From the NCBI RefSeq assembly GCF_030219325.1, contig NZ_CP126625.1, forward strand, positions 2,344,857 to 2,408,856: DNA of 64,000 bases. Reading direction: 5' to 3'. Origin of the DNA: Geothrix sp. GTDB lineage: Bacteria > Acidobacteriota > Holophagae > Holophagales > Holophagaceae. A model generated the notes under the pieces. The model made no database searches, had not been told where the DNA came from, and worked only from the letters and a program-made list of their open reading frames with translations. Below, piece after piece: positions 36,672 to 59,288 of this stretch. Both the position numbers and the translations under genes were made by a program. How positions within the stretch are numbered: position 1 is the stretch's first letter; the number at the start of each line of letters is the position of its first letter.

Positions 36672-36889
36672 TGATCACGAACCAGATGCTGCACCAGCTC
36701 CTCGTTGCCGCCGTCTTCTCCGCCCTGGGTCTGGTCATCCTGGGCCTGGTCTGGCTCTTCCTGGTGAAGGTCCTCCCCTTCTCCCTGCGGAAGGAGATGG
36801 AGGACGACCAGAACATCGCCCTCGGCATCGTCCTGGGCTGCCTCATCCTGGGCATCAGCATCATCATCGCCGCGGCGATCCATGGGTGA
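36671..36889 (+). CDS. DUF350 family membrane protein
   Basis: A 72-residue inner-membrane protein. Two hydrophobic helices (LLVAAVFSALGLVILGLVWL and ALGIVLGCLILGISIIIAAA) are joined by a short polar loop containing KEMEDDQNIA, typical of half of a DUF350 (UPF0719) unit; many homologues have the module twice. GGAGG precedes the ATG at 36671. It overlaps the spermidine-synthase-like gene by 8 bp. Function is unknown, but the association with polyamine-type aminopropyltransferases is recurrent. Confidence 0.85.
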   Translation: MITNQMLHQLLVAAVFSALGLVILGLVWLFLVKVLPFSLRKEMEDDQNIALGIVLGCLILGISIIIAAAIHG

Positions 36890-38432
36890 TTTGCCGCAAC
36901 CGGATGCGGGAGCTTCTGCTGACCAGCCCACCCTGAAGGCCCCTCTTCTCTTCATCAGCGTGCTGCTGATCGCGAGCTGCGGGCTGATCTATGAGCTGGT
37001 CGCCGGGACGCTGTCGAGCTACCTGCTGGGGGATTCAGTCACGCAGTTCTCCACGGTCATCGGGGTGTATCTCAGCGCCATGGGGCTGGGCTCCTGGCTG
37101 TCGAAGTTCCTTCACCGCGGGCTGGCCCGGCGCTTCGTGGATCTGGAGCTGGCGGTGGCCCTGGTGGGCGGCTTCTCGGCCCCCATTCTTTTCCAGGCCT
37201 TCGCCCACACCCATGCCTTCCGCGTGGTGCTCTACGGCACGGTGGTGGCAGTGGGCACCCTGGTGGGGCTCGAGATCCCCATCCTCATGCGCATCCTCAA
37301 GGACCAGGTGCGCTTCAAGGACCTGGTGGCCGGCGTGCTCACCCTCGACTACATCGGGGCCCTCTTCGCCTCCCTGCTCTTCCCCCTGCTGCTCATGCCC
37401 AAGCTGGGCCTGGTCCGCACCAGCCTGCTCTTCGGCCTGCTGAACGCCGGGGTGGGCCTCTGGTCCACGCACCTGCTGCAGTCGCAGCTGGGCCCCACCC
37501 GGATGATCCGCCTGCGCTGCCTGGCCGTCATGGTCCTGCTGGCCGTGGGCCTTGCCTTCGCCGGGAAGTTCACTCTGGCCGTGGAGGAGGAGATCTTCGC
37601 GGACGAGATCGTCTACGCCAGGGACAGCGCCTACCAGCGCATCGTGCTCACCCGCGGCCGGGGCAGCTTCCAGCTCTTCCTCAATGGCAACCTGCAGTTC
37701 TCCAGCGCCGACGAGTACCGCTACCACGAGGCCCTGGTGCACCCCGCCTTCGGCCTGCGGCCCGACGCCAAGCGCGTACTCATCTGCGGCGGCGGCGACG
37801 GCCTCGCCGTGCGCGAAGTGCTGAAGCATCCCTCGGTGCAGGAGGTGGTGCTGGTGGATCTGGATCCGGCCATGACCGACATGGCGCGCCGCCAGCCCAT
37901 GGTGCGCCAGCTCAACGGCGCCGCCCTGGACGATCCCCGCGTGAAGGTGGTCAACGCCGATGCCATGGTGTGGCTGCAGGAGACCACCGGGGCCCCCTTC
38001 GACCTGGCCTACGTGGACTTCCCCGATCCCAACACCTACGCCCTGGGGAAGCTCTACACGTCGCGCTTCTACCGCCTGCTCCAGCGCCGGCTCACGGACG
38101 ACGCCATGATCACCGTGCAGAGCACCTCGCCCCTGATGGCGCGGCAGTCCTTCTGGTGCATCGCCGCCACCATGGAGGCCTCGGGCCTCAAGGTGCGCCC
38201 CTTCCACCTGGCGGTGCCCTCCTTCGGCGTGTGGGGGTTCGCCCTGGCCTCGAAGCGCGACTTCGAAGTGCCCGCCCGCGTGCTGCCGGGCCTGCGCCAC
38301 CTGTCCGATGAGGCGACCAGCGCCATGTTCGCCTTCCCCAAGGACATGGACCGCGTCCCCGTGGAGGTGAACCGCCTGGACAACCAGGTGCTCGTCCACC
38401 TCTACACCCGGGAGTGGCGGCGATGGTCGTAA
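36882..38432 (+). CDS. Membrane-anchored spermidine synthase-like protein (polyamine aminopropyltransferase fold)
   Basis: A 516-residue fusion. Residues 20-225 contain about seven transmembrane helices (ISVLLIASCGLIYELVAGTL is the first). From about 240 a Rossmann aminopropyltransferase domain follows, with an N-terminal beta-domain (YQRIVLTRGRG and FLNGNLQFSSADEYRYHEAL), the AdoMet-type motif VLICGGGDGLAVREVL, and VVLVDLDPAMTDMA. In the catalytic loop, where soluble enzymes usually have D-S-x-D-P, this protein reads YVDFPDPNTYALG. It may transfer aminopropyl groups or be a repurposed methyltransferase; no decarboxylated-AdoMet-forming gene is present. Confidence 0.85.
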   Translation: MGDLPQPDAGASADQPTLKAPLLFISVLLIASCGLIYELVAGTLSSYLLGDSVTQFSTVIGVYLSAMGLGSWLSKFLHRGLARRFVDLELAVALVGGFSAPILFQAFAHTHAFRVVLYGTVVAVGTLVGLEIPILMRILKDQVRFKDLVAGVLTLDYIGALFASLLFPLLLMPKLGLVRTSLLFGLLNAGVGLWSTHLLQSQLGPTRMIRLRCLAVMVLLAVGLAFAGKFTLAVEEEIFADEIVYARDSAYQRIVLTRGRGSFQLFLNGNLQFSSADEYRYHEALVHPAFGLRPDAKRVLICGGGDGLAVREVLKHPSVQEVVLVDLDPAMTDMARRQPMVRQLNGAALDDPRVKVVNADAMVWLQETTGAPFDLAYVDFPDPNTYALGKLYTSRFYRLLQRRLTDDAMITVQSTSPLMARQSFWCIAATMEASGLKVRPFHLAVPSFGVWGFALASKRDFEVPARVLPGLRHLSDEATSAMFAFPKDMDRVPVEVNRLDNQVLVHLYTREWRRWS

Positions 38433-38437
38433 AGGAA

Positions 38438-38554
38438 AACCGCGAATGACGCGAATGGGCGCGAATGGAAATGCCATCGACGGTCATCTGCCCACAGCAG
38501 ATCTACACAATCATTTTTCGCGCGCCCGAAGGGCGATTCGCGCCATTCGCGGTT
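38438..38554. repeat. Intergenic palindromic element A (arms with CGCGAATG units)
   Basis: Arms at 38438-38456 and 38536-38554 are inverted copies matching at 18 of 19 positions. The left arm carries three copies of CGCGAATG at 9-10-nt spacing, followed by GGAA. The 79-nt centre has no clear gene. It separates the spermidine-synthase-like gene from the FAD oxidoreductase gene. It resembles three other palindromes in this window. Confidence 0.75.
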
Positions 38555-45034: not shown

Positions 45035-45099
45035 TCACCGCCTAGACGTCAAGAAAAGCAAGCAAGGGGCTTTTTCAGCTCTTGGCGTCTAGGCGGTGA
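45035..45099. repeat. Intergenic palindromic element D, possible bidirectional terminator
   Basis: TCACCGCCTAGACGTCAAGA at 45035-45054 is an inverted copy of 45080-45099 (19 of 20; the mismatch allows G-U pairing). An inner stem GAAAAGC with GCTTTTTC extends the hairpin. T-runs at 45103-45107 and, on the other strand, near 45027-45030 lie just outside. It is placed exactly between the convergent NrfD and aldo-keto reductase genes. Confidence 0.75.
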
Positions 45100-47916: not shown

Positions 47917-47997
47917 GCCGCGGATTAACACGGATGAACACAGATGGATAAAAACCGGACGCGGAACATCCGTGTTTATCCGTGTTCATCTGTGGCT
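47917..47997. repeat. Intergenic palindromic element B (arms with GATnAACACn units)
   Basis: Arms 47917-47947 and 47967-47997 pair over 31 positions with five mismatches, three of which allow G-U pairs. Both arms are built of 10-nt units: GATTAACACG, GATGAACACA on the left, and AACACGGATA, AACACGGATG on the right (minus-strand reading). The right arm ends 2 nt before the guaA stop codon. It separates guaA from the hypothetical gene. Confidence 0.78.
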
Positions 47998-47999
47998 GA

Positions 48000-49529
48000 C
48001 TATTCGTACTCAATGGTCGCGGGCGGCTTGCTGGTGATGTCGAAGACGACGCGGTTGATGCCGCGCACTTCGCGGACGATGCGCTGGGCGATGCGGTCCA
48101 GCAGCTCGTGGGGAAGGCGCGCCCAGTCGGCGGTCATGAAGTCCTCGCTGGTCACCGCCCGGAGGGCGCACATCCACTCGAAGGTGCGCTCGTCGCCCAT
48201 GATGCCCACGGTCTGCACCGGCAGCAGCACGGCGAAGGCCTGGCTGGTCTTGGCGTACCAGCCGCTCTCCCGCAGTTCCTGCAGGAAGATGGCGTCGGCG
48301 TTCTGCAGGATGGTGGCCCGCTCGCGGGTGATGGCGCCGGGCAGGCGCACGGCGAGGCCCGGGCCGGGGAAGGGGTGCCGCTGGTTCATCTCCTCGGGCA
48401 GGCCCAGGGCCAGGCCCGTGGCCCGCACCTCGTCCTTGAAGAGCTCGCGCAGGGGCTCCACTAGCTGCATCCTCATGCGCTCCGGCAGCCCGCCCACGTT
48501 GTGGTGGGACTTCACCAGGATGGCGCCGCCGATGCCGCTGGATTCGATCACGTCGGGATAGGTGGTGCCCTGGCCCAGGAAGTCGGCCTTGACCTTGCCG
48601 GCTTCGCGCTCGAAGACCTCGATGAACTTGCCGCCGATGATCTTCCGCTTCTGCTCGGGATCGGTCACGCCCGCCAGCGCGCCCAGGAACTCGTCCGAGG
48701 CGTCCACCCAGATGACGTTCAGCTCAAAGGGCGCGAAGTAGGCCTGCACCTGCTTCATCTCGTCCTTGCGCATGAGGCCGTGGTCCACGAACACGCAGGT
48801 CAGCTGCTTGCCGATGGCCTTGTGCAGCAGCAGGGCCGCCACGCTGGAGTCTACGCCGCCGCTGAGGCCCAGCACCACCGTGCCCGAACCCACCTGGGCG
48901 CGGATGGCCCTGATCTTTTCGTCGATGAAGTTGCCCGCGTTCCAGTCCAGCGCCATGCCGCAGCACTTGAGGAAGTTCAGCAGCAGGGGGGTGCCCTGGG
49001 CGCTGTGGGTGACCTCGGGATGGAACTGGAGGCAGTAGATCCCCCGCTTGGGATCCTCCATGGCCGCCACGGGCACGCTGGGGGTCTTGGCGGTGACGGT
49101 GAAGCCCGCGGGGGCCACCTCCACGTGGTCGCCGTGGCTCATCCACACCTGCTGGGCGTGGGGCAGGCCTTCGAACAGCATGGAGTGCTCCGGCATGGCC
49201 TGGATGTCCGCCTTGCCGTACTCCCGGCTGGCGGAGCGGTGCAGCTGGCCGCCCAGGTTGCGGGCCAGGAGCTGCTGGCCGTAGCAGATGCCGAGGATGG
49301 GCACGCCCAGCTCCAGGATGGCCGGATCCAGGTCCGGCGCCCCGGACTCGAGCACCGAGTTCGGCCCACCGGACAGGATCACGCCCTTCAGGTCCGCCCC
49401 CGCGATCTCCTGCGCCGTGGTCCCGCTGTTGTAGACCAGGCCGAAGGCGCCGAGCTCCCGCAGCCGCCGGGTGATGAGCCGCGTGTACTGGCTGCCGTAG
49501 TCGATGATCGCGATGCGTTCGTGGTGCAT
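48000..49529 (-). CDS. guaA: GMP synthase (glutamine-hydrolysing)
   Basis: A 509-residue GuaA that converts XMP to GMP with ATP and glutamine. The class I amidotransferase domain has the nucleophile C82 in GICYGQQLL, with His and Glu in LQFHPEVTHS near 170. The ATP-pyrophosphatase loop LGLSGGVDSSVAALLL follows near 220, and the C-terminal dimerisation domain ends MTADWARLP and DITSKPPATIEYE. Length and order are normal. The ATG at 49529 has GAGGCCTCC upstream. It is monocistronic, with a 129-bp gap upstream. Confidence 0.96.
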   Translation of the reverse strand: MHHERIAIIDYGSQYTRLITRRLRELGAFGLVYNSGTTAQEIAGADLKGVILSGGPNSVLESGAPDLDPAILELGVPILGICYGQQLLARNLGGQLHRSASREYGKADIQAMPEHSMLFEGLPHAQQVWMSHGDHVEVAPAGFTVTAKTPSVPVAAMEDPKRGIYCLQFHPEVTHSAQGTPLLLNFLKCCGMALDWNAGNFIDEKIRAIRAQVGSGTVVLGLSGGVDSSVAALLLHKAIGKQLTCVFVDHGLMRKDEMKQVQAYFAPFELNVIWVDASDEFLGALAGVTDPEQKRKIIGGKFIEVFEREAGKVKADFLGQGTTYPDVIESSGIGGAILVKSHHNVGGLPERMRMQLVEPLRELFKDEVRATGLALGLPEEMNQRHPFPGPGLAVRLPGAITRERATILQNADAIFLQELRESGWYAKTSQAFAVLLPVQTVGIMGDERTFEWMCALRAVTSEDFMTADWARLPHELLDRIAQRIVREVRGINRVVFDITSKPPATIEYE

Positions 49530-57786: not shown

Positions 57787-57815
57787 TTTGCGCCACCTGG
57801 CCGCCCCTGTATGAT
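57787..57815 (+). promoter_or_regulatory. Candidate promoter of the carbamate kinase gene
   Basis: TATGAT at 57810-57815, with a weak TTTGCG 17 bp upstream (57787-57792). The expected start near 57822 would leave about 16 nt before the ATG at 57838. The TATGAT contains the ATG at 57811, so that codon is unlikely to be the start. Confidence 0.45.
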
Positions 57816-57837
57816 CCTCGTTTCCCCGGGGTACGGC

Positions 57838-58785
57838 ATGACCCGAAAGATCGCACTCCTCGCCATCGGCGGAAACGCGTTGCTAAAGGAAAAAGAACGC
57901 GGGCTCCAGGAGGAGCAGCTGGAAAATGCCCGGGAGACGGCCGAGATGCTGGCGAAGGTGGTGGCCGAGGGCTACTCGCTCTGCGTGGTGCATGGCAACG
58001 GACCCCAGGTGGGGAACCTGCTCATCCAGCAGGAGGCGGCCTCCGGCCAGGTGCCGCCCTACAGCCTGGATGTCTGCGGGGCCATGACCCAGGGCTCCAT
58101 GGGCTACATGCTGGAGCGCATGCTCATCAACCGGCTGCGCTTCCTCGGCGTGGACGCCCCGGTGACCTCGGTCCTCACCGAGGTGGTGGTGGACAAGGAG
58201 GACCGGGGCTTCCAGGACCCGACGAAGCCCGTGGGCCCTTTCTATCCCGAGTTCCGCGCCCTGGAGCTGATGCGGGCCAAGCGCTGGAAGATGAAGGAGG
58301 ATTCGGGCCGCGGCTGGCGCAAGGTGGTGCCCTCGCCCAACCCTCTCGAGATCGTCCAGCTCGACGCCATCAAGACCCTGCTGCAGGCGGGAAACTCGGT
58401 CATCGCGGGCGGTGGCGGCGGCATCCCCGTGATCCGCGATGCCAGCGGCTTCCTGGTGGGCGTGGAGGCCGTCATCGACAAGGATCGGCTCAGCGCCCTG
58501 CTGGCGACCCAGCTGGGCGCCAACCTCTTCATCATCCTCACGGGCGTGGCCAAGGTGGCCCTGGACTTCGGCAAGCCCACCCAGCGCTGGCTGGACCGCC
58601 TCACGGCCGACGAGGCCCGGAGGCACCTGGCCGAGGGCCAGTTCCCCCCCGGCAGCATGGGCCCCAAGATCGAGAGCGCCCTGGGCTTCCTGGATGGCGG
58701 CGGCGACGAGGTGCTCATCACCACCGCCGAGGCCCTGGCCACCGAGGACCCCGCCACCGTGGGCACACGGATCGTGCGGGACTGA
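57838..58785 (+). CDS. arcC: Carbamate kinase
   Basis: A 315-residue carbamate kinase that makes ATP from carbamoyl phosphate, or works in reverse. ALLAIGGNALLKEKE opens the amino-acid-kinase fold; VVHGNGPQVGNLL (about 50-62), IAGGGGGIPVIRD and VEAVIDKDRLSALLA are substrate and nucleotide motifs. GSMGPKIESALGFL near the C-terminus is diagnostic of ArcC. I start at 57838, which begins the conserved domain. The other arginine-deiminase genes (arcA, arcB) are not adjacent; the enzyme may serve other carbamoyl-phosphate-yielding pathways. Confidence 0.93.
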   Translation: MTRKIALLAIGGNALLKEKERGLQEEQLENARETAEMLAKVVAEGYSLCVVHGNGPQVGNLLIQQEAASGQVPPYSLDVCGAMTQGSMGYMLERMLINRLRFLGVDAPVTSVLTEVVVDKEDRGFQDPTKPVGPFYPEFRALELMRAKRWKMKEDSGRGWRKVVPSPNPLEIVQLDAIKTLLQAGNSVIAGGGGGIPVIRDASGFLVGVEAVIDKDRLSALLATQLGANLFIILTGVAKVALDFGKPTQRWLDRLTADEARRHLAEGQFPPGSMGPKIESALGFLDGGGDEVLITTAEALATEDPATVGTRIVRD

Positions 58786-58816
58786 CCGGTTTTTCGTACT
58801 CAGAAAGAAAATGCAG

Positions 58817-58946
58817 AACACCGATGAACACCGAATAACTGCTGATAAACACCGATAAAAACGGTGCTGTCGCCCATCTGGGGACCAGGGCCCAATCAGG
58901 CGTCCTGATCGGTGTTCATCATTTTTTTTCGGTGTTCATCGGTGTT
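58817..58946. repeat. Intergenic palindromic element C (arms with AACACCGATG units)
   Basis: Left arm at 58817-58857 starts AACACCGATG then AACACCGAAT and continues in 10-nt units; the right arm at 58907-58946 is its inverted copy (AACACCGATGAACACCGA matches exactly on the minus strand). The 49-nt centre is unrelated and contains no gene. It is the longest of the four palindromes in the window, and the arm repeats are the same class as in element B. Confidence 0.82.
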
Positions 58947-58994
58947 AGGTTTTTTCCTGAAACCCTGACCCGAGACCCGACTGGAGGAGCCCCC

Positions 58995-59288
58995 ATGTAC
59001 GCCATGATCATCGTCCGCTACCGCCGCCCGCTGCTGGAGATCGAGGCCGTCACGGAAGCCCACCGGGCCTACCTCCGCGACCTGCAGGCGAAGGGCGTCC
59101 TGGTGGCGTCCGGGCCGCTGGAACCACGCTTCGGCGGCATGTGGCTGGTGCGGGTCCAGGACGAGAATCCCCTGGTCGACCTGGATGCCCTGATGGCGGG
59201 CGATCCCTTCCACCAGCACGGACTGGCCAACTACGAACTGCTGCCCTGGAAGGTGATGCAGGGCAAGGAAGGGCTCGACCGGATCTGA
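58995..59288 (+). CDS. YciI-family protein
   Basis: A 97-residue cytoplasmic protein of the YciI fold (dimeric alpha/beta barrel). MYAMIIVRYRRPLLEI opens it, a conserved His lies in VTEAHRAYLRDLQAKG (about 19-34), and VLVASGPLEPRFGGMWLV and GDPFHQHGLANYELLPW complete the signature with a conserved Asp-Pro-Phe. Family members have a putative active-site His-Asp pair but mostly unknown functions. GGAGGAG precedes the ATG at 58995. It is convergent with the receiver-domain gene, 3 bp apart. Confidence 0.85.
   Translation: MYAMIIVRYRRPLLEIEAVTEAHRAYLRDLQAKGVLVASGPLEPRFGGMWLVRVQDENPLVDLDALMAGDPFHQHGLANYELLPWKVMQGKEGLDRI

Follow-up and report, generated by a model that had tools for sequence, protein, structure and literature searches.

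Results

Four periodic palindromes between genes

The window, by which we mean the whole stretch of DNA analysed (64,000 nucleotides), contains four long inverted repeats, here called elements A to D, in the four intergenic gaps where the original prediction had placed them. They and their neighbours are as follows:

38438-38554, element A, between genes for a spermidine-synthase-like protein and a flavin amine oxidoreductase
38438..38468, + strand, left arm of A, AACCGCGAATGA CGCGAATGGG CGCGAATGG
38519..38554, - strand, right arm of A, which includes the small hairpin CGCCCGAAGGGCG
45035-45099, element D, between an NrfD-like gene and an aldo/keto reductase gene
45035..45054, + strand, left arm of D, worn CNCCAAGA type
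45080..45099, - strand, right arm of D
47917-47996, element B, adjoining guaA
47917..47946, + strand, left arm of B, GCCGCGGATTAACACGGATGAACACAGATG
47967..47996, - strand, right arm of B
48000..49529, - strand, guaA (GMP synthase, PF00958 and PF00117), neighbour of B
57811..58785, + strand, left neighbour of C, amino acid kinase family gene (PF00696), carbamate-kinase-like by inspection
58790..58983, no strand, inserted DNA of C with A/T-rich outer flanks, absent from the orthologous gap of most Geothrix examined (ends approximate)
58807-58956, inverted repeat of element C, between the amino acid kinase gene and the YCII gene
58817..58859, + strand, left arm of C, four units of ~10 nt, AACACCGATG AACACCGAAT AACTGCTGAT AAACACCGATAA
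58907..58947, - strand, right arm of C, inverted copy
58995..59288, + strand, right neighbour of C, gene for a YCII-related protein (PF03795)

All four elements are located between protein genes, none of them in a 23S rRNA helix, and their G+C content is 47-58% as compared with 68.5% for the window. Inverted arms of tandem 8-10-nt units are clear in elements A, B and C, whose arms consist of three to four units of 9-10 nt each; the third unit of the left arm of C is degenerate (AACTGCTGAT), and likewise in most relatives of C. Element D had been described as lacking a clear internal period, but its arms are a worn form of the CNCCAAGA type, of which an intact counterpart (CACCACCAAGACACGAAGACACCAAGAA) is present in the same gap of genome G030. 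The expectation that arms match almost exactly within an element did not hold either, since those of B, C and D are 83-84% identical over ~30 nt.

The palindromes are inserted DNA

In most other Geothrix genomes readable at that position, gap C measures a few tens of bases and the flanking genes are contiguous; it is empty also in the two nearest relatives, whose kinase gene is 93% identical. G018, G003 and G002 are empty at both A and B, G008 and G017 at A, and G010 at B. In relatives that are empty at B, the stop of guaA and the start of the following gene overlap. The gaps of A, B and C are thus filled here and empty in close relatives, cleanly so for all three in G018, and from this we conclude that the palindromes of the window are inserted DNA. 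The original prediction had considered miniature mobile elements, and the comparison of orthologous gaps indeed gives a mobile-like picture. Comparison of filled and empty sites showed no target duplication, whether in gaps A, B and C, at several A-type sites or in the spermidine-synthase gene described below, although a short one could have escaped notice in flanks as diverged as these. At one site the terminal-unit sequence GCCACAG is already present in an empty relative, which we mention as an anecdote only.

The same gaps hold other elements in other genomes. Gap A contains CGCAGAGA in G001 and G010, CACAGATTTCA in G030 and CGCAGATGA in G005, and gap B contains CGCAGAGG in G001, G008 and G017 and CACAGATTTCA in G030. 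In G029, the gap orthologous to C (L090) carries a different periodic element with a CACCGTTCAT unit; the YCII alignment there begins only ~200 nt into the element, as if the insertion had cost the gene its start. A non-periodic inverted-repeat element, TTAGGGCCTGTTTTCAAAGTGGG...GGCCCTAA, of 276-356 nt was seen in L219 from 2600 (G010) and at the orthologous site of G001 (L206/L207). It is absent from that site in the window genome, G018 and G003, and has TA at both ends, as in MITEs of the IS630/Tc1 type.

Arm units are present in many copies in the genome

The genome carrying the window is a single contig of 3.73 Mb. With up to two mismatches, the AACACNGATN pattern (AACACNGATNAACACNGAT) matched it 45 times and the CGCGAATG pattern (CGCGAATGNNCGCGAATG) 31 times, against 0 and 1 matches, respectively, for the reversed patterns. 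Most of these matches lie in intergenic gaps and pair up as palindromes some 70-210 nt long. That each locus uses a different unit therefore applies inside the window and not genome-wide, where units are multi-copy. Copies thus exist elsewhere and not all relatives share the sites, the two points on which the original prediction had made a mobile family depend.

Seven A-type, CGCGAATG-armed copies of 203-206 nt are similar from end to end and share a long internal GC-rich palindrome. Their genome positions are:

692087 (L050)
741809 (L062)
2564860 (L065)
2624715 (L077)
2749017 (L055)
2870003 (L056)
3582450 (L067)

This subfamily is a non-coding group that has spread recently. The smaller A-type members have their arms in common and mostly unrelated middles, which indicates that arms spread or persist without their loop.

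Coding forms carry a GxxExxY gene between the arms

Three GxxExxY genes are present in the genome, scoring 138, 134.6 and 128.7 bits with TIGR04256 (cut-off 35) and 138.8, 130.5 and 120 bits with PF13366 (cut-off 22). They are given here in genome coordinates:

2163176-2163514, GxxExxY gene between arms of the C unit
723682-724020, GxxExxY gene between arms of the A unit
3635621-3635956, GxxExxY gene beside a complete palindrome of unit GAGATNAACN, with no arms around it

In a Pfam search, the gene within arms matched PF13366 only, and no Y1/HuH transposase domain (PF01797) was found. The suggestion that the palindromes of the window are empty forms of elements that elsewhere enclose a GxxExxY gene is therefore borne out in the same genome for the A and C units. 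In other genomes, B-type arms flank GxxExxY genes in G001, G002, G030 and G032, and D-type units do so in G030, G032, G043 and G004. The window genome has B-type palindromes, yet no B-type GxxExxY gene.

A complete B-armed GxxExxY element of ~425 nt is located at the 5' end of a spermidine-synthase gene in G001, G002, G030 and G032. This site is empty in the window and in G018, G003, G008, G017 and G010:

36882..36905, + strand, empty counterpart of this insertion in the window, at the 5' end of the spermidine-synthase-like gene (PF01564)

At this insertion, which involves overlapping genes, GxxExxY appears to continue the reading frame of its host gene and would borrow the host start codon. 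Reading of the sequence also suggests that a GTG offered by the far arm might serve as a restart for the host gene.

Further A-type sites were compared with those of two other genomes. They are empty in G018, and six of seven are filled in G025, apparently a nearer relative of the window genome. The elements of G025 at those six sites have other units (CGCAGATGA three times, CCACGAAGA twice and CGCGGAAGG once), and one of them has an intact GxxExxY frame. The paired gaps are L454, L460, L461, L443, L448 and L445 in G025 and L051, L063, L054, L070, L061 and L073, respectively, in the window genome. Other units in the same gaps of sister species indicate that gaps are re-used, either as hot spots or by replacement. 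Because the fillers at these sites are not evidently homologous, independent re-occupation fits the six differences at least as well as rewriting of the arms in place. Coding and non-coding forms can alternate at one site, as seen when L061 and L054 are each compared with G025.

Arms of tandem units surround GxxExxY genes in many phyla

GxxExxY was found in 139 of the 396 Acidobacteriota genomes searched, and also in many other phyla. We assembled 167 distinct GxxExxY loci from the best matches across these 396 genomes and from 80 close relatives of the C-type protein in GTDB genomes that span many phyla. At 142 of the 166 loci with enough flank, the gene is spanned by an inverted repeat with a score of at least 18, a frequency to be taken as an estimate because the aligner took flanking coding sequence at, for example, L010, L158, L161, L167 and L431. 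When one flank was dinucleotide-shuffled, one such repeat was left, and windows displaced by 800 nt gave 5%; these controls were used because pairing arms of mismatched loci gives an inflated null, related loci having alike arms. Direct repeats at the GxxExxY loci reach 43, which periodic arms would be expected to give. The best self-match lag was 10 nt at 91 loci, 9 nt at 38 and 8 nt at 17, as compared with lags spread over all values in shuffles. The units are diverse and include CACAGAG, CACGGAG, CGCAGAG, CACGAAG, CACCAAG, CGCGAAT, AACACCGATG, ATCCCCGTTC, ACAGGATGA and more. The idea of one recurring design, in which arms of tandem units enclose a gene or a filler, holds across loci. At L145, L152, L153, L155, L166 and L171 (ATCCCCG and ATCACCG types) the unit has the opposite orientation relative to the gene.

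GxxExxY is a predicted PD-(D/E)XK nuclease

The structural model of GxxExxY (pLDDT 92) has a mixed alpha/beta fold, and its nearest Foldseek matches were SSO0001 (Cas4; E 7.5e-4), LHK-Exo, AddB of AddAB, MGME1 and archaeal Holliday junction resolvases (Hjc). Across 44 sequences, residues E36 (the E of GxxExxY), D75, E85, K87 and Q99 do not vary, and more than 90% have Y103, an arrangement that we take to be the RecB-family pattern. GxxExxY thus models as a minimal Cas4/RecB-type PD-(D/E)XK nuclease with a predicted intact active site. It would share with SSO0001, AddB and MGME1 the fold and the pattern GxxE ... D ... ExK ... QxxxY, and differs from that family in its length of 129 aa, in having no extra domain and in being carried within periodic inverted arms. 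A search for a solved structure related to GxxExxY by sequence found none. PADLOC gave no match for GxxExxY, and a role in anti-phage defence was rejected on this ground. None of 50,697 phage records and 8 of 72,556 plasmids matched GxxExxY; on these counts it is chromosomal, with the caveat that both collections are taxonomically biased.

The arm unit follows the protein lineage and the genome

The k-mer similarity of arms and the identity of the proteins are correlated (r 0.50; permutation maximum 0.10), also among pairs with less than 60% protein identity (r 0.37; permutation maximum 0.06). When nine unit classes were mapped on the protein tree they required 22 changes, as compared with 60.8 for shuffled labels, and none of 200 shuffles was as low. 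A clade of 46 rows (support 100) is GAG/AAG except for one unclassified row, and another, of 69 rows, is nearly all GAT-type, with many bacterial phyla mixed with archaea. Arms of the GAT class are alike between phyla (cosine 0.37, against 0.15 for GAT-GAG pairs). Fourfold-degenerate sites are saturated in pairs with less than 70% protein identity (0.29 observed versus 0.27 expected), and among these pairs arm similarity still climbs with protein identity. This argues for a functional tie between protein and unit, and neutral co-inheritance was rejected as the cause of their match.

Palindrome density was determined by a motif-based count, with a reversed control, in 236 kb from each of eight Geothrix genomes; a motif-based count was chosen because a strict detector of periodic palindromes failed to pick up A, C and D in the window itself. 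Counts were 0 and 0 in the two genomes lacking GxxExxY (472 kb sampled), and they reached up to 7 in genomes with five or six GxxExxY genes, the reversed control being 0 throughout. Density rises with GxxExxY number when the window is left out (rho 0.77, p 0.026, n=8 genomes). For 14 of 23 non-coding elements, the arms of a GxxExxY gene of their own genome were the best or tied match. The mean rank of unit to own genome was 1.0, versus 2.55 with permuted labels (0 of 20,000 permutations).

S23 genes form a parallel class

The original prediction had suggested that, in other genomes, such repeats flank genes for four-helix-bundle (S23-like) proteins as well as GxxExxY genes. Both are indeed found in arms, though the S23 units measure 7 nt and not 9-10 nt, and no S23 match was obtained in the window genome. 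Genes of the S23/IVP four-helix-bundle family (PF05635) are present in 186 of the 396 Acidobacteriota genomes. Inverted arms with a score of at least 18 surround 26 of 29 S23 loci, against 0 when shuffled, and tandem 7-nt units, for example AGTGGTC, GGGATCA and GGCATTA, occur at 23 of the 29. Across Acidobacteriota, the heptamer differs at each of the loci L224-L253. With 7 nt for S23 and 8-10 nt for GxxExxY the period goes with the protein family, and the S23 genes in 7-nt inverted arms are a second class parallel to the GxxExxY class.

Discussion

A family of small inserted elements with coding and non-coding members

We consider it probable that the palindromes belong to a family of small inserted elements as its non-coding members, the coding ones carrying GxxExxY, and that this nuclease drives their spread. 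An element would have two inverted arms, each of three to four tandem units of 8-10 nt, which enclose either the GxxExxY gene (element of ~425 nt) or an unrelated short filler (element of 65-206 nt). Each GxxExxY lineage would recognise its own unit, as the co-variation suggests, probably on a hairpin or cruciform into which the arms can fold. GxxExxY would then cut or trim DNA at the arms, and repair or template copying would put the arms, with or without the gene, at new and mostly intergenic sites. The proposal builds on the architecture of the elements, their insertion, the shared units, the co-variation, the same-genome matching and the intact active site; recognition, cleavage and nuclease-driven movement are the steps that we infer from these.

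Several observations count against it. No target duplication or defined cut site was readable from which to derive the chemistry of movement, and to our knowledge GxxExxY is not a known transposase. The near-absence from phages and plasmids is odd for a transposon, the B-type palindromes lack a resident B-type GxxExxY, and the gene at 3635621-3635956 lies beside a palindrome and not within arms. The unlike fillers of the small A members and the restriction of the density test to only eight genomes have to be added to these.

The main rival explanation, which we regard as unlikely, is that the arms themselves are the mobile or maintained part, moved by another enzyme (host repair or replication, or an IS transposase), and that GxxExxY is a cargo that benefits, for example by protecting or repairing the palindrome. 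It would account for the occupation of such arms by two unrelated families, GxxExxY and S23, for arms that agree while the fillers are unrelated, and for the alternation of coding and non-coding forms at one site. However, it would not predict that the unit goes by protein lineage and the period by family (7 versus 8-10 nt), and palindrome density tracks GxxExxY number.

Paired tandem repeats of this kind have been described in Geobacter metallireducens, where pairs of short tandem repeats on opposite strands and with variable spacing were read as IHF/HU sites (Aklujkar 2009, PMC2700814). TCTCCGTS[Y], the class 2 unit of that study, and the CACGGAGA type seen here around GxxExxY are complements of each other, and the class 3 and 49-member sets of the study are heptamers, like the S23 class; in its main text these sites are not linked to GxxExxY, S23 or mobility. 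The palindromes might accordingly be paired sites to which global regulators or nucleoid proteins bind, given that they are intergenic tandem units of near-helical period on opposite strands and that both the TCTCCGTS[Y] triplets and the heptamer sets have been so described. We hold this to be improbable: the same gaps are empty or hold another unit in sister species, which leaves no conserved regulon, the units match the resident GxxExxY instead, and no regulator is identified in the main text of PMC2700814.

It is very improbable that the palindromes are bidirectional terminators or structured RNAs, the latter also suggested originally, that are kept for their hairpins. Hairpins are strongly predicted (folding z as single-stranded DNA of -4.6 for A, -5.9 for B, -6.7 for C and -7.1 for D), often lie right after stop codons and in some cases have A/T-rich outer flanks. 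Nevertheless, Rfam gave no match up to E 0.1 over 36000-60000, and mismatches between arms showed no bias towards G.U over A.C (297 versus 278), on which grounds structured RNAs were rejected. A terminator scan gave a lower total than shuffles did, with no match at C or D and a single one near B that is an inner stem; terminators were rejected for this lack of an excess and of matches at C or D. Presence is moreover lineage-specific, and the coding versions carry a nuclease.

An origin as independent chance palindromes or local slippage products, suggested by the different units at the four window loci, can be dismissed, since shuffles of the window yielded a mean of 0.2 inverted repeats above the score used (30 dinucleotide shuffles) against the four found in 64 kb, the families are multi-copy with 0-1 reversed matches, and the seven A-type copies of 203-206 nt are alike throughout.

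Relation to known systems

The favoured reading, a GxxExxY-driven element family, has its closest parallel in REPIN-RAYT systems, in which REP doublets are associated with TnpA-REP, together also called REPtrons (Bertels & Rainey 2011, PMC3116915; Corneloup 2021, PMC8266576). Shared features are chromosomal, intergenic, non-coding palindromic doublets that spread within the genome, conserved ends with a variable middle, and the co-evolution of each group with the one small nuclease/transposase gene to which it is tied. In contrast, RAYTs are HuH (Y1) enzymes, whereas the gene here is for a predicted PD-(D/E)XK nuclease and lies inside the arms. The arms themselves are tandem 8-10-nt repeats instead of a single imperfect palindrome with a GTAG tag; no constant GTAG/CGTC was found beside the arms in the A and C copies inspected. 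The family most likely works like REPIN-RAYT with an unrelated enzyme, through a chemistry of movement that we infer.

MITEs resemble the elements in being short and non-coding, with inverted ends, insertion polymorphism and a related coding copy elsewhere. The elements differ in that no target duplication was seen, within the limits set by the diverged flanks, the ends are tandem repeats, the fillers are mostly unrelated and the coding relatives carry a PD-(D/E)XK nuclease and not a DDE transposase.

For the S23 class, the 23S rRNA intervening sequences (IVSs) with an S23p ORF are the known counterpart; they have been described in Coxiella, the origin of their movement being unexplained (PMC4990558). 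Like the S23 class they are small, have complementary ends around an S23 gene and are patchily distributed. The known IVSs sit in rRNA helices, whereas the S23 loci studied here were located by protein family. The heptamers GGGAATC of Xanthomonas and GGGGA(C/T)T of Nostoc have been studied as G-quadruplex repeats (Rehm 2015, PMC4692102). Two Xanthomonas genomes contain 70 and 75 convergent inverted pairs of GGGAATC, mostly intergenic (PMC4692102). As described, these repeats resemble the empty form of the S23 class; the main text names no protein partner for them (PMC4692102).

A broader reading, which we put forward tentatively and regard as possible though somewhat doubtful, is that inverted tandem-repeat arms define a so far unrecognised kind of mobile element with two parallel classes, one with 8-10-nt units run by GxxExxY and one with 7-nt units run by S23. 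Each lineage would read its own unit, most copies would be empty, both bacteria and archaea would be hosts, and the 23S IVSs would be S23-class elements caught in rRNA genes. The parallel with S23 opens the origin of rRNA intervening sequences to direct testing.

An arm unit that follows the nuclease lineage across bacteria and archaea points to a widespread mobile-element system that we did not find described in the openly readable literature. The main texts of that literature contained only incidental mentions of GxxExxY, PDDEXK_3, PF13366 or TIGR04256, and a prior description may exist. With it, common intergenic repeats that have so far been seen as regulator sites or simple repeats gain a partner and a testable mechanism, and the uncharacterised GxxExxY nuclease family gains a genomic role. 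A nuclease of ~125 aa with a recognition unit that apparently changes by lineage would offer variants in DNA recognition as a natural series.
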